A stretch of DNA of 64,000 bases. Origin: Ruminococcus sp. AF46-10NS. GTDB taxonomy: Bacteria > Bacillota > Clostridia > Lachnospirales > Lachnospiraceae. The notes below the pieces were generated by a model, which made no database searches, was not told the origin of the DNA, and saw only the letters and a program-made list of their open reading frames with translations. Location of the stretch: NCBI RefSeq assembly GCF_003474435.1, contig NZ_QRNF01000018.1:5415-69414 (forward strand), read 5' to 3'. The translations under genes were made by a program, and so were the position numbers. Shown here piece after piece: positions 6,253 through 25,438 of this stretch (the first letter of the stretch is position 1; every line of letters begins with the position of its first letter).

Positions 6253-6795
6253 TCATACAAAAGCATCAGAACCATCTGCTGTCTCAACCATATTAGTCCC
6301 GGAATCCATACTGCATTTCTGAATATAGCGGTATGCGTCTTCCTCACTCAGATGATTTCTTTCCATTAAAAGCATCTTTGCATTTGAAATATAATTCTGC
6401 TCTTTCCATGAACGCTGCTTCGGCTTTTTCTTATCTTTTTTCCAGCGCCTTTCTATCTGGGAAAGCATCATGCTCACCGTATTTACCAGATCTCCGGCCT
6501 TCAGAGGCATTCCCACACATAAAACGGAGGTTGGTGCCTCGCTGATCACTCCCTGGGAGGCCATAAGCAGCATTTCAAAATAATCCGGCATATAGTCCAG
6601 AAGATCACGGTAATACATATCCTGAAGGTGATAACCGCAAAGCAGAACACCGCCATCAAGCTCCGAGATACTGGCAAGGGCATTTGCACCCGAATTGCAT
6701 ACCGCCGCTACCGTGAATCCATATCTGTTAAGGACTGTGCGGATCTTTTTTGCATCTTCTATTTTCGGTAATGCAATCACGATACTCGTGTTCAT
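6253..6795 (-). CDS. ANTAR-domain antitermination regulator, NitR-like
   Basis: A 180-residue protein with an N-terminal receiver-like domain, a basic linker (KKDKKKPKQR, about 119-130), and a C-terminal ANTAR domain (about 135-170: AKMLLMERNHLSEEDAYRYI). ANTAR domains bind paired RNA hairpins in leaders and prevent termination. At the usual phospho-acceptor place the sequence is VLLCGYHLQ, with no aspartate, so the receiver is probably degenerate. It lies 38 nt after glnA. This glnA-ANTAR order is known from Clostridium saccharobutylicum, where NitR acts in nitrogen control; the role here is inferred from that. Confidence 0.85.
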   Translation of the reverse strand: MNTSIVIALPKIEDAKKIRTVLNRYGFTVAAVCNSGANALASISELDGGVLLCGYHLQDMYYRDLLDYMPDYFEMLLMASQGVISEAPTSVLCVGMPLKAGDLVNTVSMMLSQIERRWKKDKKKPKQRSWKEQNYISNAKMLLMERNHLSEEDAYRYIQKCSMDSGTNMVETADGSDAFV

Positions 6796-6833: not shown

Positions 6834-8154
6834 TCAGATCCGATACAGATACTCCTCGATCTCCCAATCGGAAATCTCCTGGGAATAACGCAGCCATTCT
6901 TTTCTCTTGGCCTGTGCATACTGTTTGCAGAAAGTCTCCCCAAGGATTTCCTTCATCCAGCTGCTGTCCTCAAACAGCGTGATCGCTTCCCGCAGGTTCT
7001 CCGGTAAATTCTCGATACCCTGTTCCTTCTGATCCGACTCTGAAAGAGAACGATCAGAAGCTTTTGTAGGATAGATCTTCTTCTGGATTCCATCCAGGCC
7101 CGCTGCCAGGCATACTGCAAAAACAAGGTATGGGTTGGATGCAGCATCCGGGCTTCGAAGCTCAATCCTGGTATCAGCACCATTAATTCTCGGGATCCTT
7201 ACAAGTGAATTCTGGTTATTTCTCGTCCAGGTCAGTTCTGTCGGTGCATCAAATCCAGGCACAAGACGTTTGTAGGAATTTACAAGCGGATTTGTGACAA
7301 GAGCCATTTCCCGGCTATGTGCCAGAAGACCTCCGATAAAGAAACATGCTTCTTCACTGAGTTTGGACGGATCATCCGGATCCACGAAAATATTTTTCCA
7401 TTTTTAAACAGCGAAAAATGGATATGCATGGCTGAACCGTTTACTTCCCGTCTTGGCTTCGGCATAAACGTTGCATGAAGCCCATGACGTTTGGCTACAG
7501 TTCTTACTGCCATCTTAAAGGTCATAACTTCGTCTGCCATCTTACGTGCTTCCCCGTAATGAAGGGCAATCTCATGCTGTGCAGGTGCTGTCTCATGATG
7601 AGAGGATTCCACCTCAAATCCCATATCCTCAAGAGTCAGTACCATATCACGTCTTGCATTTTCACCTAAGTCCACCGGACTTACATCCAGGTATCCGGCT
7701 TTTTCGTGAGAAACCGTTGTAGGCATTCCGTTGTCATCAATATGAAACAGGAAAAACTCACATTCCGGATCAACATAGCAGGTATAACCTGCCTTTTCTG
7801 CTGCCTGCGCTGTTTTTTTCAGAATATATCTTGAGCTCATCTCATGCTCAGATCCATCTGCACGGCGCATATCGCAGATCAGTCTTGCAACCTTTCCCTG
7901 CTGAGGACGCATGGGAGAATTGAAAAGGTATCATAGTCCGGATACAGGATCAGATCCGGCTCCTTCTCTCCCACAATGCCCGCAATATGAGAGCCATATA
8001 CAACGCACTGGTTATCCAGGGCTCTTGGAAGCTCTCTTGCTGTGATCGCAATATTTTTCAGAGTTCCAAACATATCTGTAAACTGGAGGCGGATGAACTC
8101 TACGTCTTCCTCCTCTGCCATTGCAAGAATCTCTTCTCTGGTATAATTCCCCAT
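6834..8154 (-). CDS. glnA: Glutamine synthetase type I, frameshifted twice
   Basis: Makes glutamine from glutamate, ammonia and ATP. Three adjacent reading frames join into one 440-residue GSI: MGNYTREEILAMAEEEDVEF at the start, EFFLFHIDDNG and HHETAPAQHEIA (metal/ATP site) in the middle, and NSYKRLVPGFDAPTELTW and RIELRSPDAASNPY (glutamate/adenylation-side region) at the end. The breaks are repaired by one G near 7910 (CCATGCGT to CCATGGCGT) and one A near 7393-7397 (A5 to A6). Corrected length equals the family norm. It has a consensus promoter, a leader hairpin, and ANTAR gene downstream. Confidence 0.93.
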
Positions 8155-8205: not shown

Positions 8206-8252
8206 AGAAAAAGGGTGCACTTCAGAGAGCTTCCGCTCCTGAAGAACACCCT
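8206..8252 (-). promoter_or_regulatory. Attenuator-like terminator hairpin in the glnA leader
   Basis: Starting about 14 nt after the -10 box, the minus strand folds as outer stem GGGTG/CACCC and inner stem CTTCAG-GAGC/GCTC-CTGAAG with a GGAA loop, followed by TTTTT and about 50 nt to the glnA ATG. Its place between promoter and gene makes it an attenuator candidate. The dual hexaloop (A at 1, G at 4) of known ANTAR targets is not evident. Confidence 0.7.
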
Positions 8253-8266
8253 TGTTCATGGACGTA

Positions 8267-8295
8267 ATTATAGCAATCGGTCAATTCTTTGTCAA
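8267..8295 (-). promoter_or_regulatory. Consensus sigma-A promoter of glnA
   Basis: A perfect TTGACA (8290-8295) and perfect TATAAT (8267-8272) with 17 nt between, on the minus strand. A promoter this strong implies that control is exerted after initiation, consistent with the downstream hairpin. Confidence 0.93.
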
Positions 8296-8300
8296 CCATT

Positions 8301-8368
8301 TTTTAAAAGGGGCAAAAACTCAAAAGCTTTATCGCGGAAACACGAACAGTTTTTTGACCTTTTGCCCC
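8301..8368 (-). terminator. Terminator of the pyrG-gltB-gltD transcript
   Basis: After the gltD stop the minus strand forms GGGGCAAAA..TCAAAA paired with TTTTGA..TTTTTGCCCC around a 26-nt loop, followed by TTTT. It separates the gltD transcript from the glnA promoter. Confidence 0.75.
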
Positions 8369-8382
8369 TGGTATCTGTTATT

Positions 8383-9870
8383 TTACTGTAAATAAGAATA
8401 GCTCATCAGTGATTCGTCAACTGCCTTCGCAGCCTCACGTCCCTCATGGATCGCCCATACAACAAGAGACTGACCACGGTGCATATCACCTGCTGTGAAT
8501 ACACGGTCTACGCTTGTTGCATACTGCTCAGGTTTCGTCTCCACGTTGGTTCTTGGTGTAAGAGCTACGCGGAAAGCATCTGTCACATATTTCTCGCTGC
8601 CAAGGAAGCCTGCAGCAATAAGAACCACATCTGCAGGGATCACTTCCTCACTGCCCTCAACCGGTACCATATTGAATCTTCCGGTCTTTTCATCCTTTAC
8701 GCTCTTCAGCTTTACGATCTTGGCCTTGCAGACATTTCCTTTTTTGTCCTTGATAAATTCGGTAACGGTTGTCTGATAGATCCGAGGATCATGGCCAAAT
8801 ACTGCAATAGCCTCTTCCTGGCCGTAATCGGTTTTCAGGATCTTCGGCCACTCCGGCCATGGATTGGAAGGAGTTCTTGTTGCCGGAGGCTGCGGCATCA
8901 TCTCAAGCTGTGTTACAGATTTCGCACCAAGACGGACGGATGTTCCCACACAGTCATTACCGGTATCTCCACCGCCGATGACCAGAACATTTTTGCCCTT
9001 TGCAAGCTCATATGGAAATTTTGCAAAATCTGTATCCAGAAGACTTTTTGTTACCTGCTTCAGGAAATCCACTGCAAAGTAAATTCCCTTGGCATCTCTT
9101 CCCGGAACCTTGATATCTCTCGGATGAGAAGCTCCACAGCAGAGAAGGACACGGTCATAATCCTTCAGAAGCTGTTCTGCAGTGATGTCAACACCAACAT
9201 TGATATTGGTAACAAATTTCACGCCTTCCTCTTCCATCAGCTTCAGTCTGCGGTCAATGACCTTTTTCTCCAGCTTCATGTTCGGAATGCCGTAGCGGAG
9301 AAGTCCTCCGATACGGTCGTTTCTCTCAAATACGGTTACGCTGTGGCCACGGCGGTTCAGCTGCTGTGCTGCTGCCAGTCCGGAAGGACCACTTCCGATG
9401 ACTGCGATCGTCTTTCCTGTGCGGACAGGCGGGATCTGCGGTTTTACCCATCCTTCTGCATAGGCTGTCTCAATGATCGCTTTCTCATTCTCCTTTGTGC
9501 TGACCGGATCTCCGTTCAGGTTACAGGTACATGCAGCTTCGCAAAGTGCTGGACACACTCTGGATGTAAACTCCGGAAAGCTGTGTGTCTTATTTAAACG
9601 AAGGAATGCCTGCTTCCAGTTTCCTGTGTACACAAGATCATTTGTCTCAGGAACCAGGTTGTGCAGCGGACAGCCAGAAGCCATTCCGCCGATCATCATA
9701 CCTGCCTGGCAGAAGGGGACGCCGCAGGCCATGCAGCGTGCTCCCTGAAGTTTCTGTTTTTCTTTATTTAATGGAATACGAAATTCGTTGAAATTCTGAA
9801 TACGTTCCTTTGGCGGCAGAACCTTTGCCGTTTCTCTTTCATAATCTAAAAATCCAGTTGGCTTTCCCAT
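8383..9870 (-). CDS. gltD: Glutamate synthase (NADPH) small subunit
   Basis: Takes electrons from NAD(P)H through FAD and Fe-S clusters to the large subunit GltB. The 495 residues contain N-terminal Fe-S cysteines (RCMACGVPFCQAG and CPALCEAACTC), an FAD Rossmann motif (VIGSGPSGLAAAQQL), a second nucleotide motif (VIGGGDTGNDC), and the C-terminal FTAGDMHRGQSLVVWAI typical of the GltD/PreT family. It starts 13 nt after gltB. Confidence 0.96.
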   Translation of the reverse strand: MGKPTGFLDYERETAKVLPPKERIQNFNEFRIPLNKEKQKLQGARCMACGVPFCQAGMMIGGMASGCPLHNLVPETNDLVYTGNWKQAFLRLNKTHSFPEFTSRVCPALCEAACTCNLNGDPVSTKENEKAIIETAYAEGWVKPQIPPVRTGKTIAVIGSGPSGLAAAQQLNRRGHSVTVFERNDRIGGLLRYGIPNMKLEKKVIDRRLKLMEEEGVKFVTNINVGVDITAEQLLKDYDRVLLCCGASHPRDIKVPGRDAKGIYFAVDFLKQVTKSLLDTDFAKFPYELAKGKNVLVIGGGDTGNDCVGTSVRLGAKSVTQLEMMPQPPATRTPSNPWPEWPKILKTDYGQEEAIAVFGHDPRIYQTTVTEFIKDKKGNVCKAKIVKLKSVKDEKTGRFNMVPVEGSEEVIPADVVLIAAGFLGSEKYVTDAFRVALTPRTNVETKPEQYATSVDRVFTAGDMHRGQSLVVWAIHEGREAAKAVDESLMSYSYLQ

Positions 9871-9883
9871 TTCCTCATCCTCC

Positions 9884-12800
9884 TTAATGTTTCACGCCGA
9901 TGCTCTCATAGAACGCTTCCATCTGTGCCTGCTGGCTGGTCAGACCTTTTTCTTCCAGCTTTGCACTTAATGTGATCATTCTCTTGTACTCATCCGGAAT
10001 GAGTTTTTTGAAGTGAGGCAGATAGGAATCAAAATCAGCCAGCACCTTCTTACCGATCTCGGAGCCTGTTGCTTCCACATGAGCCTCGATGAGATCACGA
10101 AGCTCTTTTTTATCATATTTATTATCCACTTTTTCAATGGAGATCATTGCTTTATTGAGGTTCTTGTAAAGAACGTTATCCACATCAAGAACATAAGCGA
10201 TACCACCGCTCATACCTGCTGCAAAGTTCTTTCCTGTTTTTCCAAGAACTACCACACGGCCACCTGTCATGTACTCGCAGCCATGCTCGCCAACGCCCTC
10301 AACAACTGCAACCGCACCGGAGTTACGTACTGCAAAACGCTCACCTGCAACACCGTTGATAAATGCAGTTCCACTGGTTGCACCATAGAGTGCCACGTTT
10401 CCGACGATGATATTCTCTTCAGCCTTGTATCCGGCCTTCTCCGGAACCTTAACGATCAGCTTACCGCCGGAAAGACCTTTTCCGAAGTAGTCGTTGCTGT
10501 CACCGGTCAGTTTCAGTGTCAGTCCCTTCGGGATAAAGGCACCGAAGCTCTGTCCGCCTGCACCTGTACAGTTTACAGTTACAGTATCCTCCACAAGTCC
10601 GTCCTTATGGTTTCTTGTGATCTCAGATCCGAGAATGGTACCAAATGCACGGTCTGTATTTGTAACATTTACATCAACAGAAACCTTCTCACCCTTTTGG
10701 ATCGCCGGTGCACATTTCCTGACCAGAACTTTTTCATCCAGAGTTTTCTCAAGATTGAAATTGTATACAGCCTCGGATCAAAGGTTACTTTACCCTTTCC
10801 TGCATATGGGTTGTTCAGAATGGCACTTAAATCAACCTTACCCTTATGCGGCTCCTGCACACTGTCAGAAACTGTAAGAAGGTCTGTACGGCCTACCATC
10901 TCATCGATGGTGGCAACACCAAGGCGTGCCATGTACTCTCTCAGCTCCTGTGCGATAAAGCGCATGAAGTTCTCCACATACTCCGGTTTTCCGCGGAATC
11001 TCTTACGAAGCTCCGGATTCTGGGTAGCCACACCAACCGGACAGGTATCCAGGTTGCAGACTCTCATCATCACGCAGCCCATCGTTACAAGCGGTGCTGT
11101 TGCAAAACCGAATTCCTCTGCACCGAGAAGTGCTGCAATGGCAACGTCACGGCCGCTCATCAGCTTACCGTCTGTCTCGATACGTACACGGTTACGAAGT
11201 CCGTTCATGATCAGTGTCTGATGTGTTTCTGCAAGTCCAAGCTCCCATGGAAGTCCTGCATTATGGATGGAGCTTCTTGGCGCTGCTCCTGTACCTCCGT
11301 CATATCCGGAGATCAGAACAGTCTGTGCACCGGCCTTTGCAACACCGGCCGCAACCGTACCAACACCCGCCTCAGAAACCAGCTTTACGGAAATATCCGC
11401 ATATTTATTGGCGTTTTTCAGGTCATAGATCAATTCTGCCAGATCCTCGATAGAATAGATATCATGATGTGGCGGCGGAGAGATCAGGCTGACTCCTGGT
11501 GTGGAATGACGGGTTTTTGCGATCCACGGATATACCTTCTTTGCAGGAAGATGTCCGCCTTCACCAGGCTTTGCACCCTGTGCCATCTTGATCTGGATCT
11601 CTCTTGCAGAAACCAGGTAACGGCTGGTAACACCGAAACGTCCGCTGGCTACCTGTTTGATCGCTGAGCAGCGGTCATTGTCTGTTCCTGCAGAATCCAG
11701 ACGCTCGTCGCTTTCACCACCCTCACCGGTATTGGATTTTCCATGGAGATGGTTCATGGCAATAGCCAGTGTCTCATGTGCTTCCTGGGAAATAGAACCG
11801 TAGGACATGGCACCTGTCTTAAATCGTTTTACAATGTCCTCAACACTCTCAACCTGGTCGATTGGAATAGGCTCCTTGGCAAACTTGAAGTCCAGAAGAC
11901 CTCTTAAGTTTCCATGTCCCTCGTCATCTACCAGCTTTGTATATTCCTTGAACATCTCATAGCTGCCCTGTTTTGTGGACTGCTGGAGAAGATGAATGGT
12001 ACGTGGGTTATATTTGTGCTCCTCACCCTGGCTTCTCATCTTATGGGCACCTACGCTGTCCAGTGTAAGATCTGTGGCAAGTCCAAGGGGATCAAATGCC
12101 TCAGAATGAAGTTTTTCTACATTATCCTCGATATCTTCCAGTGTGATTCCGCCTACACGGCTTACGGTTCCTGTAAAGTAACGATCGATCACATCCTGGG
12201 AAATTCCGATTGCCTCAAAGATCTGAGATCCCTGATAGGACTGGATAGTGGAAATACCCATCTTGGAAGCGATCTTTACGATACCGCTGATCACCGCATG
12301 ATTGTAATCATCAACAGCTGCGTAATAGTCCTTATCCAGCATATGTGTATCGATCAGCTCATGGATAGTATCCAGTGCCAGATACGGATTGACTGCACTT
12401 GCGCCATATCCAAGAAGTGTTGCGAAATGATGTACCTCTCTCGGCTCACCGGACTCCAAGATCAGGGCAAGGGAAGTGCTCTTCTTTGTTTTTACAAGAT
12501 GCTGATGTACTGCGGAAACCGCCAGCAGGGACGGGATTGGCATATGGTTCTCATCCACGCCACGGTCAGAAAGAACCAGGATGTTTGCTCCCTCACGGAA
12601 GGCTTTGTCTACCTCTACGAACAGACGGTCAATGGCACGTTCGAGCTTTGTGCTCTTATAATATAAGGTAGAAATAGTCACAACCTTGAATCCGTCCTTT
12701 TTCATATTTTTGATTTTCAGCATATCGGTGTTGGTCAGGATCGGATTGTTGATCTTCAGCACCTGACAGTTCTCCGGCTTCTGGATCAGAAGGTTTCCGT

Positions 12801-14427
12801 CTTTACCTACATATACACTTGTGGAAGTAACGATCTCCTCACGGATCGCATCGATCGGCGGGTTTGTTACCTGTGCGAAAAGTTGTTTGAAGTAGTCAAA
12901 CAGCGGATAATGTTCCTTGGAAAATACCGCAAGCGGAGTATCATGTCCCATGGCTCCGATGCTTTCTGAGCCGTTTAATGCCATGTTGCGGATGGAAGTA
13001 CGGTACTGCTCATAAGTGTATCCGAATGCTTTCTGAAGGCGTGCTCTCTCCTCCGGTGTGTACTCGACAACTCTCTGATTCGGGATCTTGATATCACGAA
13101 GCTGTACCAGATTGCTGTCCAGCCACTCGCCATAAGGCTGTTTTTTCGCATATTTTTCTTTGAGTTCATTATCATCGATGACACGACCCTGAACGGTATC
13201 AACCAGGAGCATTTTTCCCGGATGAAGACGTTCTTTTAATACGATTTTCTCCTCATCTACAGGAAGAACACCAACCTCGGAGGAAAGAATCATATAGCCA
13301 TCAGAGGTGATATAGTATCTGGATGGACGAAGACCGTTTCTGTCAAGAACTGCTCCCATCACATCACCATCCGAGAACAGAATGGACGCAGGACCGTCCC
13401 ATGGCTCCATCATGGTCGCATAGTATTGATAAAAATCTCTCTTCTCCTGAGAGATCGTATCGTTGTTTGCCCATGGCTCCGGAATTGTGATCATCACTGC
13501 AAGTGGAAGATCCATTCCACTCATAACCAGAAATTCCAGGGTATTGTCAAGCATTGCGGAGTCAGAACCATTGCGGTTAACTACAGGAAGAACCTTATGC
13601 AGCTCATCCTTCAGATACGGAGACTCCATATTTTCCTCACGGGCAAGCATCTTATCGGCATTGCCACGGATCGTGTTGATCTCACCGTTATGTACAATGA
13701 AACGGTTCGGATGTGCTCTCTCCCAGCTCGGGTTCGTGTTGGTACTGAAACGGGAATGTACCACTGCAATGGCAGACTCGTAATCCTGGCTCTGAAGATC
13801 GCCAAAGAAGGTACGGAGCTGTCCTACCAGGAACATACCTTTGTATACGATGGTACGGCTGTTCATGGAAACCACGTAGGTATTGTCATTACTCTGCTCA
13901 AATTCACGGCGTGCGATGTAAAGCATACGGTCAAAGGCAAGACCCTTTTCCACATCCTCCGGTTTCTTAACAAATGCCTGCATGATGCACGGCATGCACT
14001 CTTTCGCTTTATGACCGAGTACCTCCGGAAAAACCGGCACTGTACGCCATCCCAGAAGCTCCAGTCCCTCTTTTTCCACGATGATCTCAAACATCTTCTT
14101 TGCCTGGGCACGTTTGATCTCCTGCTGTGGAAAAAAGAGCTGGGCTACACCGTATTCTCTCTCACCACCAATGTCAAATCCCTCTTTTTTACAGACCCTC
14201 TTAAAAAATTTATGGGAGATCTGAAGAAGGATACCGACACCATCACCGGTTTTTCCTTCTGCATCCTTACCTGCACGATGCTCAAGATTCTCTACGATCT
14301 TAAGAGCATTGGCAACTGTATCATGTGTTTTCTTTCCTTTTATATTAACAACAGCTCCGATACCGCAGTTGTCATGTTCGAATTCAGGGCGGTAGAGGCC
14401 CTGCTGCTGATTTGCTACTTCTCTCAT
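9884..14427 (-). CDS. gltB: Glutamate synthase large subunit, frameshifted
   Basis: Transfers the glutamine amide to 2-oxoglutarate, giving two glutamates. Domains in order: class II glutaminase (nucleophile Cys in [11 protein letters not shown]), central domain, FMN-binding synthase domain ([20 protein letters not shown]; Fe-S cysteines in [17 protein letters not shown]), and the GXGXG beta-helix tail ([15 protein letters not shown]). The frame breaks near 10773; adding one A (CCGAGGCTG to CCGAAGGCTG) reconnects it and gives about 1,515 residues, the family norm. An ATG at 14436 overlaps the pyrG stop, but AAAGG suits the ATG at 14427 better. Confidence 0.95.
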
Positions 14428-14432
14428 TTTTC

Positions 14433-16059
14433 TCATCCTTTCATTGCAGCTTCTTCTGCCGTCTTTTTATCAACTGCCGCCTGCACAAACCCACGGAACA
14501 GAGGATGTGCATGGTTTGGTCTGGATTTAAATTCCGGATGCCCCTGTGTTCCCACAAAGAACGGATGTCCGGCAATTTCGATCATCTCAACAATATGAGC
14601 ATCCGGGGATGTTCCCACAATGGACATTCCCTTTTCGTCCAGTTCCTTACGGAATGCGTTGTTTACCTCATAACGATGTCTGTGGCGTTCCTGAATCTCT
14701 TTCTTCCCAAAAAGCTCATAGGATCTTGAACCTTCTGCAAGCACACACGGATAGCTTCCAAGACGAAGGGTTCCTCCAAGATCTTCCACATCCTCCTGAT
14801 CTGGCATCAGGCAATGACCGGATGCGTTGTTTCCGGTGCCAGCTCAATACTGTTGGCATCTTCATATCCAAGCACATGGCGGGCAAATTCCACAATAGCC
14901 ATCTGCATTCCAAGGCAGATTCCAAGGTACGGGATCTTATGAACTCTTGCATACTGCGCCGCAGGATCATTCCTTCTGTACCACGGTTTCCGAATCCTCC
15001 CGGAACCAGGATACCATCTACGGAATGAAGGGTCTGATCCAGATTCTTCTCATTGAGTTCTTCAGAATCTACCCACACGATATCAACCTTTGCACGGCAG
15101 GAGATTCCTCCATGCTTCAGTGCTTCCACAACACTCAAGTATGCATCATGAAGCTGTGTATACTTACCAACCATCGCGATCTTCACAGTTTTATCAGGGT
15201 GACGGAGATTTTCCACCATATTCTCCCAGTCTGTAAGATCCGGTTTGCGGTTCTCAAGTCTTAAGCTCTGCAGTACCACGTCTGCAAGCTTTTCTCTCTC
15301 CATTGCAAGAGGAGCTTCATATAAATATTCCACATCCAGATTCTGAAGCACATTGCTTACAGGCACATTACAGAACAGGGCGATCTTTCCACGGATATCC
15401 TCAGTAAGAGGATACTCACTTCTGCATACCAGGACATCCGGCTGGATTCCCATTCCCTGAAGCTCTTTTACACTGGCCTGGGTCGGTTTGGTCTTCATCT
15501 CTCCGGAAGCACGGAGATATGGGATCAGAGTTACATGGATAAGGATCGCATTGTCATGTCCCACATCATGCTGGAACTGACGGATGGATTCTAGGAACGG
15601 CTGGCTCTCAATATCACCGACTGTACCGCCAACCTCGATGATGGCAATTCTGTCTTCGTCTGCGGATTTTGCTCTGTAAAAACGACTCTTGATCTCGTTG
15701 GTAATATGCGGGATCACCTGAACGGTACCTCCGCCGAAATCACCATGACGCTCTTTCTGAAGAACAGACCAGTAAATCTTACCGGTTGTCACATTGGAAT
15801 TTTTGTCAAGGCTTTCATCAATGAAACGTTCATAATGTCCAAGGTCAAGATCAGTCTCTGTACCGTCATCGGTTACAAAAACCTCTCCATGCTGAATGGG
15901 GTTCATAGTTCCCGGGTCAATATTAATGTAGGGATCAAATTTCTGCATGGTCACCTGATACCCTCTGGCTTTCAGAAGGCGCCCAAGAGACGCTGCGGTA
16001 ATTCCTTTTCCCAGACCGGAAACAACTCCACCCGTTACAAAAACATACTTTACTGCCAT
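14433..16059 (-). CDS. pyrG: CTP synthase, frameshifted twice
   Basis: Makes CTP from UTP, ATP and glutamine. It starts [19 protein letters not shown] (synthetase P-loop) after GGAGGAGG. The C-terminal glutaminase has the nucleophile Cys in [11 protein letters not shown] once frames are corrected, and the catalytic His-Glu near HPEFKSRP. Adding one G near 14962 (CTGCGGCG to CTGGCGGCG) and one C near 14811 (GCCTGATG to GCCCTGATG) gives 542 residues, the normal length. The operon pyrG-gltB-gltD joins two enzymes that consume glutamine. Confidence 0.94.
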
Positions 16060-16093
16060 CTTCGATTTCCTCCTCCATTTTGTGTTCCACAAC

Positions 16094-16160
16094 AAAAAGG
16101 CGTCCGGAACAGGTTCCAAGGGGCGAGAATTCCCCTGTGGTATCCGTTCCTGACGCCTTT
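16094..16160 (-). promoter_or_regulatory. Attenuator-like terminator hairpin in the pyrG leader
   Basis: The minus-strand leader forms AAAGGCGTC/GACGCCTTT with further pairing (GGAAC/GTTCC) and an inner GGGG/CCCC helix, followed by TTTTTG, about 34 nt before the pyrG ATG. It is a strong terminator lying between promoter and gene. The Bacillus pyrG reiterative-G mechanism does not fit well because the transcript start is not G-rich. Confidence 0.75.
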
Positions 16161-16190
16161 GTCAGTTATCTTTCATATAAAATATGGTTT

Positions 16191-16219
16191 ACTATAAACT
16201 ATTTTTTTTTATTTGTCAA
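16191..16219 (-). promoter_or_regulatory. Promoter of pyrG-gltB-gltD
   Basis: TTGACA (16214-16219) and TATAGT (16191-16196), 17-nt A-rich spacer, minus strand. Confidence 0.85.
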
Positions 16220-16273
16220 TAACAGATTTTTTATATAGTCTGCAGAATTTCTTCCTATGAAATGGTTACAAAT

Positions 16274-16334
16274 AAAAAACAGACGTCTGCCGAGGATTTC
16301 CATCTGATCTCCTGTCTCTGCAGCCACGTCTGTC
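16274..16334 (-). terminator. Terminator after the HPr-like gene
   Basis: Minus strand ACAGACGT pairs with ACGTCTGT across a long loop, followed by TTTTTT. It ends the transcript before the pyrG promoter. Confidence 0.7.
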
Positions 16335-16379
16335 TTTTCTTTTTTGTCTTTTATATCTTGTCTGTCTCTGCACTGTCTG

Positions 16380-16604
16380 TCAGGCAACTGCATATTTCTG
16401 AAGGAAACAATTAAACTCATGATCCTCACCATGACAGGTTACTGTAAGAACCTTGGTCAGATCCATGCTGAGGATTCCAAGAATAGATTTTGCATCAATT
16501 AAAATTCTGTTATATGAAATATCTACATCAAAATCACATTTACTTGCAGCCTTAACAAATTCTTTAACATCCTCTGTCGCATTCAATCTAATTTTTTTAG
16601 ACAT
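16380..16604 (-). CDS. HPr-family protein lacking the phospho-histidine
   Basis: A 74-residue protein with the HPr fold pattern. The regulatory-serine helix is recognisable as AKSILGILSMDL, but the segment where HPr has its His15 (usually GLHARPA) reads TEDVKEFVKAASKCDFD, with no histidine. It therefore cannot relay phosphate as PTS HPr does, and a structural or regulatory role is more likely. The start at 16604 follows GAGAGG. It is a single-gene transcript with promoter, leader structure and terminator, set among glutamine genes. Confidence 0.75.
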   Translation of the reverse strand: MSKKIRLNATEDVKEFVKAASKCDFDVDISYNRILIDAKSILGILSMDLTKVLTVTCHGEDHEFNCFLQKYAVA

Positions 16605-16630
16605 AAATATCATCCTCTCTTTTATCTCGG

Positions 16631-16687
16631 TAAAAACCGGCATTGTTCCGGCCTCGCTGTTTTCCTGTATTTTCCAGACCAGCGGCC
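16631..16687 (-). promoter_or_regulatory. Possible attenuator in the HPr-like gene leader
   Basis: Two overlapping folds can be drawn on the minus strand. One is a hairpin GGCCGCTG...CAGC-GA-GGCC; the other is a short terminator CCGG-AACAATG-CCGG followed by TTTTT that uses part of the same GGCC. The two exclude each other, as in an antiterminator/terminator pair. It is short and could be chance. Confidence 0.4.
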
Positions 16688-16709
16688 TTTTCTCATCTGG
16701 CTGTTCCAC

Positions 16710-16738
16710 ATTATGTCTCATGTTGTCAGATTTGTCAA
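16710..16738 (-). promoter_or_regulatory. Promoter of the HPr-like gene
   Basis: TTGACA (16733-16738), 17 nt, CATAAT (16710-16715), minus strand. Confidence 0.85.
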
Positions 16739-16889
16739 GTTGATATTTTTTATCGTTTTGGACGTTTTTCCTATAGAAACGAATTTTATATGATAAAATC
16801 CGGGTTTCTTAGATATTTATTGTGCAGTTTTCATATTTTCATTTTTCAATCCATTATTTTTAACTGTGAGATTAATTCCATATAGTTCA

Positions 16890-18284
16890 TTAATCCTGTT
16901 TGATTTCTTCTGGTATCTCCATCGGATAATTACCATCAAAGCATGCTTTGCACAACGGAAGGCCACCTGCCATGCCTTCCAGATAATCGATCTGCATGTA
17001 GCCAAGAGAATCCGCACCGATCATCTTGCGAATCTCTTCCGTACTATGCTGTGCCGCAATCAGCTGATCATTGGACGGCACATCCGTACCGAAATAACAG
17101 GGATGTAAAAATGGCGGGGAGCTGATACGTACATGTACTTCTTTGGCTCCGGCTTCTTTCAGCATGTGGATCAGATTGGCAATGGTAGTTCCACGGACAA
17201 TGGAATCATCCACCAGAACGATTCTCTTACCCTTCACCACTGATTCCAGAACGCTCAGCTTCAGATGAACGCTTGACTCTCTCTCCTGCTGTGTAGGCTT
17301 GATAAAAGTTCTTCCAATGTAACTGTTTTTATAGAATGCAAAACCAAACGGGATTCCAGATTCCTCCGAATAGCCTTTTGCTGCCGGAAGTCCGGATTCC
17401 GGTACACCGGTTACCAGATCCGCTTCTACCGGATAGGACTTTGCAAGAGATTTTCCTCCACGAATCCTTGCATCATAGATTTTTACGCCATCCATAGTGC
17501 TGTCCAGTCTTGCAAAATAAATATATTCAAAAACACAATGAGCATGCTTTTTCTGTTCAGCCAGCTTGCTGGATTTCAGTCCGTCCCTGGTGATCGTGAC
17601 GATCTCACCCGGTTCAATATCACGGATAAATTCCGCTCCTACAGATGTCAGTGCACAGCTCTCAGATGCCAGAACATAAGCATTGTCTCTCTTTCCAAGG
17701 CAAAGTGGTTTCAGTCCGTACGGGTCACGGGCACCGATCAGCTTCCTCGGGCTCATGATCACAAGCGCATATCCGCCCCTGATCTTCTCTACTGTTTTAT
17801 GTACTGCTTCCTCTACAGTTGCAGAATGAACACGTTCCCTTGCAATATGGAAAGCAATAACCTCTGAATCTGTCGTTGTATGGAAGATCGCTCCTGTCTG
17901 GATCAGTTCCCATTTCAGAGCTTCTGTATTAACCAGATTTCCGTTATGTGCCAGTGCCAGACTTCCCTTAATATAAGAAAGTACCAGCGGCTGTGCATTC
18001 TCCGCAACAGACTCTCCGGTGGTGGAATAACGAACATGTCCGATTCCGATGTCACCATTCATATTATGTACAACATCTTTTCGTAAAACTTCGCTTACCA
18101 GTCCGAGATCTTTATGAAACTGTACGTTTCCTCTTTCTCCGTCCGTCCTTGAAACGGCCATTCCGCAGGACTCCTGTCCTCTGTGCTGCAGCGAAGTAAG
18201 ACCATAATAAATAGATGGTGCAATATTCCCTCCATCCAGATCATAAATCCCGAATACGCCACATTCTTCCTTTACTCCTGACAT
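16890..18284 (-). CDS. purF: Amidophosphoribosyltransferase
   Basis: First committed step of purine synthesis: PRPP plus glutamine to phosphoribosylamine. An N-terminal glutaminase follows a short propeptide (MSGVKEECGVFGIYD, nucleophile Cys8 after processing). The C-terminal phosphoribosyltransferase domain has the PRPP loop IVLVDDSIVRGTT. Late cysteines (CYFGTD, CKACFDG) resemble the Fe-S-type enzyme of Bacillus. The second ATG (18284) is chosen because GGAGG lies 5 nt before it; the ATG at 18296 has no ribosome site. Confidence 0.95.
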   Translation of the reverse strand: MSGVKEECGVFGIYDLDGGNIAPSIYYGLTSLQHRGQESCGMAVSRTDGERGNVQFHKDLGLVSEVLRKDVVHNMNGDIGIGHVRYSTTGESVAENAQPLVLSYIKGSLALAHNGNLVNTEALKWELIQTGAIFHTTTDSEVIAFHIARERVHSATVEEAVHKTVEKIRGGYALVIMSPRKLIGARDPYGLKPLCLGKRDNAYVLASESCALTSVGAEFIRDIEPGEIVTITRDGLKSSKLAEQKKHAHCVFEYIYFARLDSTMDGVKIYDARIRGGKSLAKSYPVEADLVTGVPESGLPAAKGYSEESGIPFGFAFYKNSYIGRTFIKPTQQERESSVHLKLSVLESVVKGKRIVLVDDSIVRGTTIANLIHMLKEAGAKEVHVRISSPPFLHPCYFGTDVPSNDQLIAAQHSTEEIRKMIGADSLGYMQIDYLEGMAGGLPLCKACFDGNYPMEIPEEIKQD

Positions 18285-18400
18285 ATTTTCCTCCATCTGT
18301 TTTTCCGTATTGTGTATCTTTGTAACTGGTCAAAAAGCTTCTTTTTCCATGATCCCTTATAGCGATCACTGACTTTTCGAATGTATAACTACGATATCAG

Positions 18401-18428
18401 ATTATAATAAAAGGACAAGATTTGTCAA
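18401..18428 (-). promoter_or_regulatory. Promoter of purF
   Basis: TTGACA (18423-18428), 16 nt, TATAAT (18401-18406), minus strand. It is divergent from the glnN promoter about 65 bp away. The 110-nt leader shows no purine riboswitch or terminator that I can recognise. Confidence 0.8.
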
Positions 18429-18491
18429 CCCTGCCTATTTTCCGACAGTCCGATCGCCCTGATCGATTTTTTAGATTTTTTTAAAAAGCTC

Positions 18492-18519
18492 TTGACAATA
18501 TTTTATTTTGGTGTATACT
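18492..18519 (+). promoter_or_regulatory. Promoter of glnN
   Basis: TTGACA (18492-18497), 16 nt, TATACT (18514-18519). The hairpin at 18534 follows. Confidence 0.85.
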
Positions 18520-18533
18520 GCAACACATAAAGC

Positions 18534-18577
18534 AAAGGCGCTTTGGATACGACAAGTATCTGAAGCGCTTTTTTTGT
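18534..18577 (+). promoter_or_regulatory. Attenuator-like terminator hairpin in the glnN leader
   Basis: AAAGGCGCTT pairs with AAGCGCTTT outside, GATAC with GTATC inside (loop GACAA), then a run of seven T. It sits about 15 nt after the -10 and about 100 nt before the glnN ATG. It has the same outer AAAGGCG helix as the pyrG and amt leaders. Confidence 0.75.
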
Positions 18578-18673
18578 TTTTTCGGTCCGTAATACCCGGT
18601 CATTCCGGCAGCGGTCCTTATAAGATAATTAAAAATTATAATGAATGAGTGAAATCGAAAGGAGTGTACCTAT

Positions 18674-20776
18674 ATGGCACAGAGTATCCCTGAAATGTAT
18701 GGCAGCCTTGTATTCAATGACAAAGTGATGCGAAGCAAACTGCCAAAGGACATGTACAAAGCATTAAAGAAAACAATTGAAAACGGAACTCATCTGGAGC
18801 TGGATGTTGCAAATTCCGTAGCAGTTGCAATGAAAGAATGGGCTACCGAAAACGGTGCAACACATTACACACACTGGTTTCAGCCGATGACAAACGTAAC
18901 AGCAGAAAAACATGATAGCTTCATCTCCCCTACAGGTGATGGACAGGTGATCATGGATTTCTCCGGTAAAGAGCTGGTAAAAGGTGAGCCGGATGCATCC
19001 AGTTTCCCGTCAGGTGGTCTTCGTGCTACTTTCGAAGCAAGAGGATATACAGCATGGGATCCTACTTCACCAGCATTCATCAAAGATAAGACACTTTACA
19101 TTCCTACAGCATTCTGTTCCTACAGCGGAGAGGCACTTGATAAGAAAACTCCTCTTCTCCGTTCCATGGATGAACTTAACAAAGAAGCAGTTCGTATTCT
19201 TCACATCCTTGGAAACAAAGAGGTTCGTCATATCAACACAACAGTAGGACCTGAGCAGGAGTACTTCCTGGTTGACAAGGATCTCTATAAAAAGAGAAAA
19301 GACCTGATTTTCTGCGGACGTACACTTCTGGGAGCTTCCGCACCAAAAGGACAGGAGATGGAGGATCATTACTTCGGAGCTCTGAAACCTCGTGTTGCTG
19401 CTTACATGCATGATCTTGACGAAGAGCTCTGGAAGCTTGGCATTCCGGCCAAAACAAAGCATAACGAGGTTGCTCCTGCACAGCACGAGCTGGCTCCTGT
19501 ATTTGATACCACAAATGTTGCTGTCGACCACAACCAGCTGACCATGGAAATTATGAAAAAAGTTGCTGACAAGCACAACATGGTCTGCCTCCTTCACGAG
19601 AAACCATTTGAGGGAATCAACGGAAGCGGTAAACACAACAACTGGTCCATGAGCACAGACACAGGTGTAAACCTTCTTGATCCTGGAAAAACACCGGCAG
19701 AGAATACACAGTTCCTGGTATTTTTGGTAGCTGTTATTAAAGCCGTTGACGATTACGCTGATCTTCTCCGTGTATCCGTTGCAAGTGCCGGAAACGATCA
19801 TCGTCTCGGAGCAAACGAGGCACCGCCTGCGATCGTATCCATCTTCCTCGGAGACGAGCTGACAGACATACTGAAATCCATTGAAAATGATACCTTCTTC
19901 AACAACAAGCATGCAGTACAGATGGATATCGGAGCAAAGGTACTTCCTCACTTCACAAAGGATACCACTGACAGAAACCGTACTTCACCGTTTGCATTTA
20001 CAGGAAACAAATTTGAGTTCCGTATGCTTGGTTCCGCGGCATCTGTTGCAAACCCGAACATCGTACTGAACACTGCTGTTGCAGAGGTTCTTGCTGAATT
20101 CAGCGCAGCTCTTAAGGATGTTCCGGAAGAAGAAATGGAAAGCGCAGTACATGCACTTCTTAAGAAAACCATTGAAGAGCATAAACGCATCATCTTTAAC
20201 GGAAACGGCTATACAGACGAGTGGGTTGAAGAAGCTGAGAAACGCGGTCTCTACAACCTGAAAACAACTCCTGATGCTCTTCCTCATTTCATTGCCGAGA
20301 AGAACATTGAGCTGTTTACAAAGCATGGCATCTTTACAAAGGAAGAACTCTTCTCCCGTTACGAGATCTGGCTTGAGAACTATTATAAGACCATCAACAT
20401 CGAGTCCAACACTCTTGCTGAAATGATCCAGAAACAGGTAATTCCTTCTGTATATACATATGTTGAAAAGCTTGCAGATACTGCAGCTGCAAAGAAATCT
20501 GTAGTAGCTGACGTTTCTGTAGCAAGCGAAGTTGCTCTGATTTCCAAACTGAGTACACTTGCAGACACCATGGCAACGGATCTGGAAACTCTGAAAGCAG
20601 ATACAGCAAAAGCTCTTGCTTCTTCTGACGATGTACTTGCATGCTCTAAGGCTTATCAGGAAACTGTTCTGGAAGACATGGAAGCTTTAAGAAAATCTGC
20701 TGATGAGGCAGAGGCTCTGATCCCGGATGAGTTACTTCCATATCCGACTTATGACGAGCTGTTATTCTCTATCTGA
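18674..20776 (+). CDS. glnN: Glutamine synthetase type III
   Basis: A second glutamine synthetase, of the large GSIII class (700 residues, normal length). The N-terminal GSIII domain (MYGSLVFNDKVMRSKLPK) is followed by the catalytic core with VGPEQEYFLVD, KTKHNEVAPAQHELAP, GINGSGKHNNWSMS and FRMLGSAASVANPN, and a C-terminal helical tail. GSIII often works alongside GSI in Clostridia and Bacteroides. The start has AAAGGAG upstream. It is divergent from purF and followed by amt-PII on the same strand, each with its own leader hairpin. Confidence 0.96.
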   Translation: MAQSIPEMYGSLVFNDKVMRSKLPKDMYKALKKTIENGTHLELDVANSVAVAMKEWATENGATHYTHWFQPMTNVTAEKHDSFISPTGDGQVIMDFSGKELVKGEPDASSFPSGGLRATFEARGYTAWDPTSPAFIKDKTLYIPTAFCSYSGEALDKKTPLLRSMDELNKEAVRILHILGNKEVRHINTTVGPEQEYFLVDKDLYKKRKDLIFCGRTLLGASAPKGQEMEDHYFGALKPRVAAYMHDLDEELWKLGIPAKTKHNEVAPAQHELAPVFDTTNVAVDHNQLTMEIMKKVADKHNMVCLLHEKPFEGINGSGKHNNWSMSTDTGVNLLDPGKTPAENTQFLVFLVAVIKAVDDYADLLRVSVASAGNDHRLGANEAPPAIVSIFLGDELTDILKSIENDTFFNNKHAVQMDIGAKVLPHFTKDTTDRNRTSPFAFTGNKFEFRMLGSAASVANPNIVLNTAVAEVLAEFSAALKDVPEEEMESAVHALLKKTIEEHKRIIFNGNGYTDEWVEEAEKRGLYNLKTTPDALPHFIAEKNIELFTKHGIFTKEELFSRYEIWLENYYKTINIESNTLAEMIQKQVIPSVYTYVEKLADTAAAKKSVVADVSVASEVALISKLSTLADTMATDLETLKADTAKALASSDDVLACSKAYQETVLEDMEALRKSADEAEALIPDELLPYPTYDELLFSI

Positions 20777-20811
20777 CAACTGATATCAGATAACAATTTC
20801 ATACGGTAAAT

Positions 20812-20900
20812 ACAGGGGATATCCCTTATGAACTCTACTTCATAATTCATTATCGATTTCCTCATCCATTAATCACACGATACAGATATCCCCTGTTTTA
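20812..20900 (+). terminator. Possible terminator of glnN
   Basis: A perfect 12-nt inverted repeat, ACAGGGGATATC and GATATCCCCTGT, is separated by 61 nt and followed by TTTTA. The loop is unusually long for a terminator, so a processing structure is also possible. Confidence 0.5.
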
Positions 20901-20922
20901 CATATACTTATTTTGATTTCGT

Positions 20923-20961
20923 AAAGGCGCGGAAGAGAATTTCCTCTCTCCTGCGCTTTTT
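20923..20961 (+). promoter_or_regulatory. Attenuator-like hairpin before amt
   Basis: AAAGGCGC-GGA-AGAG pairs with CTCT-TCC-GCGCTTTTT around loop AATTTC, about 118 nt before the amt ATG. TATACT (20903-20908) lies 17 nt before GGCGC, as in glnN, but no good -35 box is seen. It could instead end read-through from glnN. Confidence 0.6.
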
Positions 20962-21078: not shown

Positions 21079-22802
21079 ATGTATTCTTCAGTAAACACAT
21101 TATGGGTCCTCGTCGGTGCCGCACTGGTCTTCTTCATGCAGGCTGGCTTTGCAATGGTTGAAACAGGATTCACAAGAGCAAAAAACGCAGGTAATATCAT
21201 CATGAAAAACCTGATGGATTTCTGTATCGGAACTCCGGTCTTCTGGCTGGTTGGATTCGGCATCATGTTCGGTGCAGGAAACGGTTTCTCCGGCAAGATC
21301 GGCGGAATCGCCTCAGAGGCAAACTACGGAAACGCAATGCTTCCGGATGGAGTTCCTTTCTGGGCATTTCTCATCTTCCAGACAGTATTCTGTGCTACCT
21401 CTGCAACTATCGTATCCGGTGCCATGGCAGAACGTACCAAATTCATTTCCTACTGTATCTACAGCTTACTGATCAGCCTCGTTGTATACCCCGTATCCGG
21501 CCACTGGATCTGGGGCGGCGGATTTATCAGCCAGATGGGATTTCATGATTTCGCAGGTTCCTGTGCCGTTCATATGGTAGGTGGTGTTGCTGCACTGATC
21601 GGTGCCATCATCCTCGGACCTCGTATCGGAAAATATTCCAAATCCGGTAAATCCCGAGCAATCCCCGGACATAACCTTACTGTTGGTGCACTTGGTGTAT
21701 TTATCCTCTGGTTCTGCTGGTTCGGTTTCAACGGTGCATCCACTGTCAGCATGGAAGGCGATGCCATTGTAAGTGCCGGAAAAATCTTCGTAACAACAAA
21801 CCTTGCAGCTGCCGTTGCAACTGTAACAGTTATGCTGATCACATGGATCCGCTACAAAAAACCGGATGTTTCCATGTCACTCAACGGTTCTCTTGCAGGA
21901 CTGGTAGCCATCACAGCAGGCTGCGATACTGTATCTCCTACATCTGCAGCTATCATCGGAATCATTTCCGGATTCATTGTAGTATTTGGTATTGAATTCA
22001 TTGACAAAGTTCTCAAAATTGATGACCCTGTTGGTGCTGTTGGTGTTCACGGTCTCAACGGTGCTTTCGGAACTCTTGCTGTAGGTCTTTTCTCTGACGG
22101 TGCAGGTACCGAGTGGAAAGGTCTCCTCACAGGCGGTGGTTTCCATGGCTTCGGTGTTCAGTTTATTGGTATGGCTATTACTATCGCATGGGTTGCTGTT
22201 ACTATGACAATTATCTTCCAGGTGATCAAACACACCATCGGTCTTCGCGTTTCCGCTGAGGAAGAGATTGCAGGTCTGGATGTGAAAGAGCATGGCCTTG
22301 CAAGTGCATACGATGGATTCTTTGTACAGGATACCATGACAAAGGCTCCGACTCCAATGGGAACTTCCGTAAAAGCCCTGTTGTAAAACACGCTCCTTCT
22401 GCTCCTGCTGAATCTGTTCCTGAGATTCCGGCAGACGGCGTACACAAACTGACAAAAGTTGTTATCATCACACGTCAGAACAAGCTGGATGAATTTATGC
22501 AGGCCATGAACGAGATCGGCGTAACCGGTATCACTATCACAAATGTTATGGGATGTGGTGTTCAGAAGGGTGCTCCAACCTACTATCGTGGTGTTGAGGT
22601 TGACATGAACCTCCGTCCGAAGGTTAAGATCGAAATCGTTGTAAGTCTCGTACCTGTTCAGAAGGTTATTGATACTGCAAAGGCAGTTCTTCATACCGGC
22701 CAGATCGGTGATGGTAAAGTCTTCGTTTACGACATCGAAAACGTAGTAAAGATCCGTACCGGCGAGGAAGGCTTCCTGGCTCTGCAGGATACAGACGCAT
22801 GA
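21079..22802 (+). CDS. amt: Ammonium transporter fused to a PII signal domain, frameshifted
   Basis: An ammonium channel of about 11 membrane segments ([34 protein letters not shown], and the pore His region [10 protein letters not shown]) continues into a C-terminal PII/GlnK domain from about residue 457. PII features are the T-loop [26 protein letters not shown] and IRTGEEG. The frame breaks at 22376-22378; one more C (GCCCTGTTG to GCCCCTGTTG) joins the parts through a Pro/Ala linker into 574 residues. The fused PII could gate its own channel in cis. It lies downstream of glnN. Confidence 0.92.
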
Positions 22803-23776: not shown

Positions 23777-24289
23777 TTATTCTGCTTCGATCAGAAATCC
23801 TCGCCGTTTCAGCATATCCTGGATCATATCCAGGATTTCCTCGGATTCTGCTTCTACTTTATGATAATGATAATCCGCTGTGATATTCTTCAGAGGACTG
23901 GACTTGCCGCTTCGGATATCCTCCATAAAATTCTCAACCTGGCGTCTGGAGCTGATATTCAGTTCTGCCTCGATATGTCCGTAAACTCTGTGATTCACCA
24001 TTACATTGATCACTTTTCCGCCAAGATCCACAATCCCGCAGAGCTCATTCTTCAGATCTGCATCTGTATGATGCACTTTGAATATCCGGCTCACAGTATG
24101 AGGAGCATTGAAAATATATCCCCTGTTGGTGGATATCACGTCGTTCCCTTCTGCGCGTATCAGCGCAACATCCTGCACGATCACCTGTCTGCTGACCTGA
24201 AATGTTCTGGCCAGAGCACTTCCCGAGACCGGCCGGTCACTGTTTTTAATTTGATCCATGATCGCTGTCCTGCGTTCTGAACCAGTCAT
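23777..24289 (-). CDS. niaR: NiaR-type transcriptional repressor of NAD synthesis
   Basis: A 170-residue protein with an N-terminal winged HTH (SGSALARTFQVSRQVIVQDV) and a C-terminal 3H domain, named for conserved histidines, seen here as KVHHTDADLK, VNHRVYGHIEAEL and ADYHYHK. NiaR binds nicotinate and represses nad genes and niacin uptake in Firmicutes. It lies 192 nt after nadC and is probably part of the nad transcript or its neighbour. A candidate operator is upstream of nadA. Confidence 0.9.
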   Translation of the reverse strand: MTGSERRTAIMDQIKNSDRPVSGSALARTFQVSRQVIVQDVALIRAEGNDVISTNRGYIFNAPHTVSRIFKVHHTDADLKNELCGIVDLGGKVINVMVNHRVYGHIEAELNISSRRQVENFMEDIRSGKSSPLKNITADYHYHKVEAESEEILDMIQDMLKRRGFLIEAE

Positions 24290-24481
24290 TTAAGTTCCCC
24301 TTTCCTGGCTGTACCTGTACTATTTATTCCGATATCTGTCTCCTTCATTCTCGCGATATCTCCCACCCGGTTCAGATATTACCTGTTATGCCTCTGCTTC
24401 CGACAATTCTCGCTTCTTTTTTTCTGATATTCCGGATATTTCCTGTCACAGCACTCGGTATTTTGCAAAATTCTGTGATCT

Positions 24482-25336: not shown

Positions 25337-25438
25337 TTTACAATACCTTCTCTTTCCTAATTATCATAGCAGCCCTGTTCTCCGAAGCAAGGCTGCTCCC
25401 TTCTTTCATAATACGCATATTTATATTGCAGGCTGCAT

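Follow-up and report, generated by a model that had tools for sequence, protein, structure and literature searches.

Attenuator-like leaders with one hexaloop at the predicted RNA start, probably under ANTAR control, before glutamine genes of Lachnospiraceae

ANTAR-domain antiterminators have been described as acting on leaders with dual hexaloops that obey the A1/G4 rule (A at loop position 1, G at position 4) and overlap a terminator, and a link to nitrogen genes has been drawn (Ramesh 2012, PMC3369931). A companion perspective names glutamine synthetase (GS) among the ANTAR target genes (PMC3369936), and a review citing Stutz et al. 2007 presents NitR of Clostridium saccharobutylicum as an ANTAR antiterminator which induces GS and glutamate synthase (GOGAT) genes on nitrogen limitation (PMC6316151). 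A survey of actinobacterial ANTAR systems also demanded dual stem-loops (PMC8164766). In Walshe 2022 (PMC8934654), one hexaloop is the binding unit, while antitermination still takes two; the authors mention that the dual motif is not followed by some mycobacterial targets, and call for bioinformatic work on the importance of single hexaloops. Here we analyse the leaders of four transcripts, headed by glnA, pyrG, glnN and amt, in a stretch of 64,000 nucleotides (nt) from a gut Blautia bacterium (contig NZ_QRNF01000018.1; the whole stretch is called the window). From sequence comparison we consider it very likely that these leaders are ANTAR-controlled transcription attenuators, each with one hexaloop and with no upstream recruitment hairpin (P1).

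The leaders resemble those of EutV/EutW in Enterococcus faecalis in the A1/G4 hexaloop, the overlap with an intrinsic terminator and the fold of the protein, but EutV leaders carry both P1 and a second hairpin, P2, and deletion of P1 or mutation of P2 impaired induction, whereas one hexaloop is seen here; moreover, EutV is phosphorylated (PMC3369931, PMC8934654), whereas the phosphosite is lost in the ANTAR protein of the window. NitR, as described in the review, likewise combines an ANTAR protein, genes of the GS/GOGAT cycle and antitermination, and differs in that the regulon predicted here extends to pyrG, purF, carA, asnB, glmS and amt. The nitrogen ANTAR regulons of Desulfotomaculum are similar in including several nitrogen operons per genome, glutamate synthase among them, but were found by a search which required two hairpins (PMC3369931). 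What looks new here is thus the RNA layout, a single hexaloop at the predicted 5′ end instead of the two tandem hexaloops of described leaders. The initial annotation had proposed an undescribed attenuation family: as to the kind of control this did not hold, since ANTAR/NitR control of GS/GOGAT genes is published, while for the single-hexaloop 5′-end layout no description was found in the literature searched, which lacks most subscription journals including Stutz 2007. A text search of this literature for ANTAR with a single hexaloop matched PMC8934654 alone.

The four transcripts had been picked out because a stable hairpin with a T tract lies between promoter and gene in each. These hairpins are indeed present, with minimum free energies (MFE) of -19.7 to -37.3 kcal/mol, and are more stable than dinucleotide shuffles (z -4.2 to -6.0, MFE folding), with a T tract after each. 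The leaders and their genes are as follows.

8295-8290 (TTGACA), spacer of 17 nt, 8272-8267 (TATAAT), minus strand: glnA promoter, from the sequence, with similar promoters in relatives
8244..8257, minus strand: candidate glnA antiterminator hairpin GAAC[AAGGGT]GTTC, 9 nt from the -10 box to the stem
8206..8252, minus strand: glnA leader terminator with T tract, -28.1 kcal/mol, z -5.3, overlapping the hexaloop hairpin in its loop and 3′ arm
6834..8154, minus strand: glnA, type I glutamine synthetase, from the list of open reading frames and relatives; frame broken in the window
16219-16214 (-35, TTGACA) and 16196-16191 (-10, TATAGT), minus strand: pyrG promoter, from the sequence
16150..16165, minus strand: candidate pyrG-gltBD antiterminator hairpin CTGAC[AAAGGC]GTCAG, 25 nt from the -10 box to the stem
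16094..16160, minus strand: pyrG leader terminator, -37.3 kcal/mol, z -5.7
14433..16059, minus strand: pyrG, CTP synthase (a glutamine amidotransferase), heading pyrG-gltB-gltD; frame broken in the window
8383..14436, minus strand: gltB (frame broken) and gltD, glutamate synthase, from the list of open reading frames, Pfam and relatives
18492-18497 (-35, TTGACA) and 18514-18519 (-10, TATACT), plus strand: glnN promoter, from the sequence
18528..18545, plus strand: candidate glnN antiterminator hairpin TAAAGC[AAAGGC]GCTTTG, 8 nt from the -10 box to the stem
18534..18577, plus strand: glnN leader terminator, -23.0 kcal/mol, z -6.0
18674..20776, plus strand: glnN, type III glutamine synthetase, by Pfam GSIII_N
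20917..20934, plus strand: candidate amt antiterminator hairpin TTTCGT[AAAGGC]GCGGAA, closed by a U-G pair, 8 nt after TATACT at 20903-20908
20923..20961, plus strand: amt leader terminator, -19.7 kcal/mol, z -4.2
21079..22802, plus strand: amt, ammonium transporter, and a PII protein (glnK-like), by Pfam

The strong promoters claimed earlier for pyrG, glnA and glnN were recovered by eye as near-consensus -35 and -10 boxes; amt has no recognisable -35 box (by eye). The opening letters AAAGGCG in three leaders and AAGGGTG in glnA could also be verified, and the letters common to all four come from a short upstream hairpin, namely its loop and 3′ arm; in every case this hairpin presents an A1/G4 hexaloop (AAAGGC; AAGGGT in glnA) on a stem of 4-6 base pairs (bp). 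In all four leaders this loop and 3′ arm double as the 5′ strand of the terminator, so that hairpin and terminator are mutually exclusive. Both strands of the window were scanned for A1/G4 hexaloops that overlap a terminator and have a stem of at least 4 bp with at least two G-C pairs. This gave six sites, four of them the leaders studied, compared to 0.3 on average and never more than 2 in 30 dinucleotide shuffles. The two further sites lie on the minus strand at 52655 and 48345, with the loops ATGGCA and AAGGAC.

The arrangement recurs in relatives. A named Lachnospiraceae sample of 80 loci (1.43 Mb, picked through the ANTAR protein of the window; 79 contain glnA) yielded 71 hexaloop-plus-terminator sites, compared to 9 in one shuffle, and the commonest loops were AAAGGC (30) and AAGGGC (19), although the scan imposed only A1, G4, the stem and the terminator. 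Thirty-three of the 71 sites precede glnA, 32 of these being of the AARGG type. After removal of seven off-type matches, 64 AARGG-type leaders remained, which precede glnA (32), pyrG (17), gltB (2), glnN (1), purF (1), lysS (2) and other genes (9). Within the genus, the hairpin was found again before glnA, glnN, pyrG and amt. Here a strict terminator filter was passed by 11/31 glnA, 23/31 glnN, 18/31 pyrG, 16/31 amt and 3/30 gltB rows, counts which include the window's own rows (its amt row failed) and a few passing rows with another hairpin; T-G replaces the C-G closing pair in 7 of the 16 passing amt rows. The hairpin therefore persists in related species, as the initial annotation would require, but not at every locus. 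The bare DNA pattern AAAGGCG...CGCCTTT was not enriched over a backwards control in 38 genomes; since sequence alone is thus undiagnostic, a promoter-plus-hairpin model was used instead.

The position of the hairpin relative to the promoter carries the argument for the layout. Starting from the hairpins, the -10 box of the best promoter in the preceding 50 nt ends 5-16 nt before the stem at all 32 glnA sites, and the distance from -10 to stem is 12-34 nt at 16 of 17 pyrG sites. Starting from the promoters, 54 of the 79 named glnA loci combine a promoter score of at least 10 with a hairpin within 28 nt; the 54 leaders score 10-12, the maximum being 12, and loop position 1 is A in 51 and G in 3. 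G at this position (GARGGY) with the stem kept was seen before glnA at loci L256, L262 and L282. The stem begins 5-16 nt after the -10 box in the 54 leaders, with a median of 7.5 nt, and as transcription usually starts about 7 nt after -10, the hairpin is predicted to open the RNA. A second, upstream A1/G4 hexaloop corresponding to P1 was found in none of the 54 predicted glnA transcripts, a count obtained without a dual leader as positive control and explained largely by there being hardly room between predicted start and stem.

Pairing in the stem was examined in two alignments. The first holds 65 of 84 leader segments picked for stems, 19 having been left out by eye, namely near-duplicates, segments whose promoter or locus was doubtful, and the amt-type L046 with its U-G closing pair; the second holds 51 of 64 stretches, 13 having been removed for another loop or for a loop not 10-16 nt after -10. 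The closing C-G pair is invariant in both without having been imposed, which is not so in amt leaders. In the 51 glnA hairpins (32 distinct), to which no stem criterion was applied, 91.3% of cells are paired compared to 88.9% after shuffling (15 of 500 shuffles as high), and 8 double changes stand against 2.8 (1 of 500). The stem-picked set of 65 shows 45 double-changed cells against 17.5, and a covariation score of 0.500 against 0.312 (0 of 500). The stem thus covaries in homologues, and the lack of covariation that was to speak against the proposal did not materialise. A T tract was detected in 46 of the 54 glnA leaders, and all 46 fold as a terminator which takes up the loop and arm.

Two readings would restore a dual motif. 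In the first, the true start sites would lie farther upstream than the predicted promoter, giving transcripts with P1 as in canonical leaders; the ANTAR leaders described so far generally have dual hairpins, and the start sites used here are predicted. We hold this to be unlikely, since the 45 nt upstream, which include the promoter, contain a further A1/G4 hexaloop in 9 of 64 leaders, about as often as in shuffles (12.9%), and promoters scoring 10-12 of 12 stand immediately before the stem in the 54 glnA leaders. In the second, the partner hexaloop would lie downstream, inside the terminator. An A1/G4 hexaloop on at least 3 bp does occur downstream of the hairpin and no farther than the T tract in 16 of 46 glnA leaders, where 4.0 were expected, but 12 of the 16 lie in the 3′ arm of the terminator and pair with the T tract (e.g. 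AAG[AATGCC]TTT), and such a loop tends to arise where the 3′ arm is complementary to the first hairpin. When the part contributed by this arm is removed, 2 of 46 leaders remain against 3.1 expected, and the 3′ arms of the window's glnA, pyrG and glnN terminators contain no downstream hexaloop (by eye), which makes this second reading quite improbable.

The candidate for the factor acting on the four leaders is encoded next to one of them:

6253..6795, minus strand: ANTAR-domain protein of 180 amino acids (aa), receiver-like domain plus ANTAR domain, Pfam ANTAR E 4.8e-14

Its gene lies directly downstream of glnA, with a gap of 38 nt. Together with the A1/G4 hexaloop in all four leaders, this neighbourhood suggests that the common trans-acting antiterminator postulated in the initial annotation was very probably the right idea and that this protein is very probably that antiterminator. 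The AlphaFold2 model of the protein has a mean predicted local distance difference test score (pLDDT) of 87, and the top fold matches of the model in the PDB were EutV, then Rv1626 and AmiR. At the position of the EutV phospho-Asp, the profile alignment places G54, and none of 25 aligned homologues has Asp there; the receiver is therefore probably a pseudo-receiver without a phosphorylation site. The Tyr and Met which contact the loop in EutV are kept as Y155 (replaced by F or H in 5 of the 25 homologues) and M163 (25 of 25). AmiR of Pseudomonas aeruginosa, which the model matched at 8.9e-06 in Foldseek, is also an ANTAR protein with a receiver-like domain, and is controlled by its ligand-binding partner AmiC. 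The nearest named locus, in Blautia schinkii (L211), encodes an ANTAR protein with 98% identity, and a search of viral contigs for relatives of the protein found none.

Leader and ANTAR gene also tend to occur together. The ANTAR gene is present in 35 of 38 genomes of the genus, each with exactly one match, and in 131 of 150 genomes of a family sample, in single copy in 128. A covariance model of the -10 box plus hairpin, trained partly on leaders from the same genus and on loci picked via this ANTAR protein, has matches at E ≤0.05 in 63 of the 131 family genomes with ANTAR compared to 1 of the 19 without (Fisher p 0.0003, counted by hand), and in 32 of the 35 genus genomes that have ANTAR; of the three that lack it, one (G019) has such matches. 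This co-occurrence argues against a metabolite-sensing riboswitch, for glutamine or another ligand, as the element controlling the terminators. A leader element common to four related transcripts would suit such an RNA, and a glutamine-sensing one had been considered at the outset, but no Rfam family reaches its gathering threshold in the window, the alternative fold is a mere hairpin of 14-18 nt, and the conserved element, 4-6 bp with fixed loop letters, is too small for a typical aptamer; we therefore regard a riboswitch as very improbable. The same low standing is given to the view that the terminators are unregulated look-alikes with letters common by chance or duplication: the bare pattern being no commoner than its backwards control in the 38 genomes would fit it, but the excess of window sites over shuffles, the covariation of the stem and its placement right after the promoters of nitrogen genes in relatives do not. 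CTP-sensing reiterative attenuation of pyrG was rejected, as no G run is seen by eye near the predicted start and glnA, glnN and amt would be left unexplained.

The covariance model was also used to predict the extent of the regulon. In the 38 genomes of the genus it gave 113 matches at E ≤0.5, of which 67 were at E ≤0.05; of the latter, 52 precede glnA (25), glnN (22) or purF (5), as placed by position, with purF confirmed by tblastn in its five loci. These 52 are partly obtained by construction, because part of the training set of the model came from leaders of these genomes. Among the other 15, we read 14, most of which precede nitrogen-related genes: asnB (three), carA, glmS, a gene resembling NAD synthase, a urea-type ABC binding protein, amt with a PII-like tail, NRAMP-like genes (two), PPDK_N-domain proteins (three) and an ABC ATPase. 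Of six weaker matches read as well, one precedes an LL-diaminopimelate aminotransferase and one a flavin oxidoreductase-like protein; the remaining four (L375, L376, L377 and L381, all at E >0.05) show no terminator on inspection by eye and were discounted as apparent chance matches. Names rest on NCBIfam for ten proteins and Pfam for eight, the NAD-synthase, urea-type, NRAMP, PEP-synthase and PII matches being below the NCBIfam cut-offs; two asnB, one NRAMP, two PPDK_N and the flavin protein were named by eye. Other named loci add carA (L233 and L271, by Pfam), asnB (L238) and an aminotransferase (L267). The predicted regulon thus comprises glutamine synthetases, amt and the glutamine-spending amidotransferases pyrG, gltB, purF, carA, asnB and glmS, and many of its genes, as annotated, make, import or spend glutamine nitrogen.

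Some loci deserve separate mention. In some Blautia (L037, L039, L041, L042 and L052), purF is divergent from glnN and also has a hexaloop leader; the window scan found no such leader before the purF of the window. At L379, before amt of genome G037, two hairpin-plus-terminator modules apparently stand in tandem, suggesting stacked attenuators. The PPDK_N-domain proteins downstream of a model match with a terminator at L363, L367 and L374, in three genomes, exceed 800 aa (L374 by Pfam, the others by eye).

Several observations weigh against single-hexaloop attenuation by the ANTAR protein. Folded alone, the short hairpins are weak (pyrG -4.9, glnN -2.9, amt -2.1 kcal/mol), and since among these three that of pyrG alone clearly beats shuffles, the hairpin is energetically unremarkable. 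Four RNA-contact positions of EutV are changed in the ANTAR protein (R168Q, N173D, R175G and R177N), so that RNA binding is not to be assumed. With start sites predicted only, an unseen upstream start could put P1 into the RNA, and at the EutA loci, intended as a positive control for dual hexaloops, a clear dual leader was not found. The training of the covariance model favours both the matches within the genus and the co-occurrence with ANTAR. Genome G019 has the glnN motif and no ANTAR match, G191 has a model match without ANTAR, and 68 of the 131 ANTAR genomes have no model match under strict filters with 48 candidates scored per genome. The arrangement is missing in 25 of the 79 named glnA loci, of which 12 have no strong promoter (several of these directly follow gltD) and 13, Hungatella among them, have a promoter and no [AG]ARGGY hairpin. 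Hungatella-type glnA leaders (L279, L285, L257, L289, L459 and L462) have a similar promoter and a terminator at the RNA start, with a different 5′ arm and an AACGGGG or GACGGGG segment, and do not form the usual hexaloop hairpin. We inspected the glnA regions of 40 of the 68 ANTAR-bearing, model-negative family genomes and found a promoter score of at least 10 in 24; at 12 of these promoters one hexaloop hairpin lies 9-19 nt past -10 with any further hexaloop downstream only, and at the remaining 12 the hexaloop hairpin is absent or doubtful (both by eye). On balance, we lean, with some reserve, towards a widespread class of ANTAR attenuators that works without P1 and with one hexaloop at the 5′ end as antiterminator, this hairpin being the first structure to emerge from RNA polymerase.

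In the mechanism we propose, the nascent leader would by default fold into the intrinsic terminator and transcription would stop. Under nitrogen (glutamine) limitation, the ANTAR protein would bind the hexaloop hairpin, which lies at the leader's 5′ end or close to it, and hold this hairpin closed, the loop and 3′ arm would be kept from the terminator, and RNA polymerase would read through into glnA-ANTAR, pyrG-gltBD, glnN and amt-glnK. With 38 nt between them, glnA and the ANTAR gene probably have the glnA leader in common, which would make the regulatory loop self-reinforcing. That read-through would be switched on when nitrogen is limiting is an expectation based on NitR and on the gene content. 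In analogy to AmiC and AmiR, feedback-inhibited GS or PII might convey the signal to the unphosphorylatable receiver by contact.

Two further features of the window concern its annotation. The frames of glnA (6834-8154), pyrG (14433-16059) and gltB (10669-14436) are broken, while in genome G001 they are open with 447, 576 and 1527 aa, and the breaks look like assembly indels. At 23777-26698 a 3H/HTH_11-domain regulator, which we take to be NiaR-like, lies beside apparent nadC and nadB (by eye).

If the single-hexaloop layout is real, the published need for an ANTAR dimer contacting each of two hexaloops to prevent termination would not be general, and surveys for two hairpins would have missed the apparent main glutamine regulon of many Lachnospiraceae, a regulon which would be run by an ANTAR protein incapable of phosphorylation. 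The leaders provide many natural cases for testing the requirement for two hexaloops. Moreover, they suggest joint control of glutamine synthesis and of glutamine-spending enzymes in a large family of gut bacteria.

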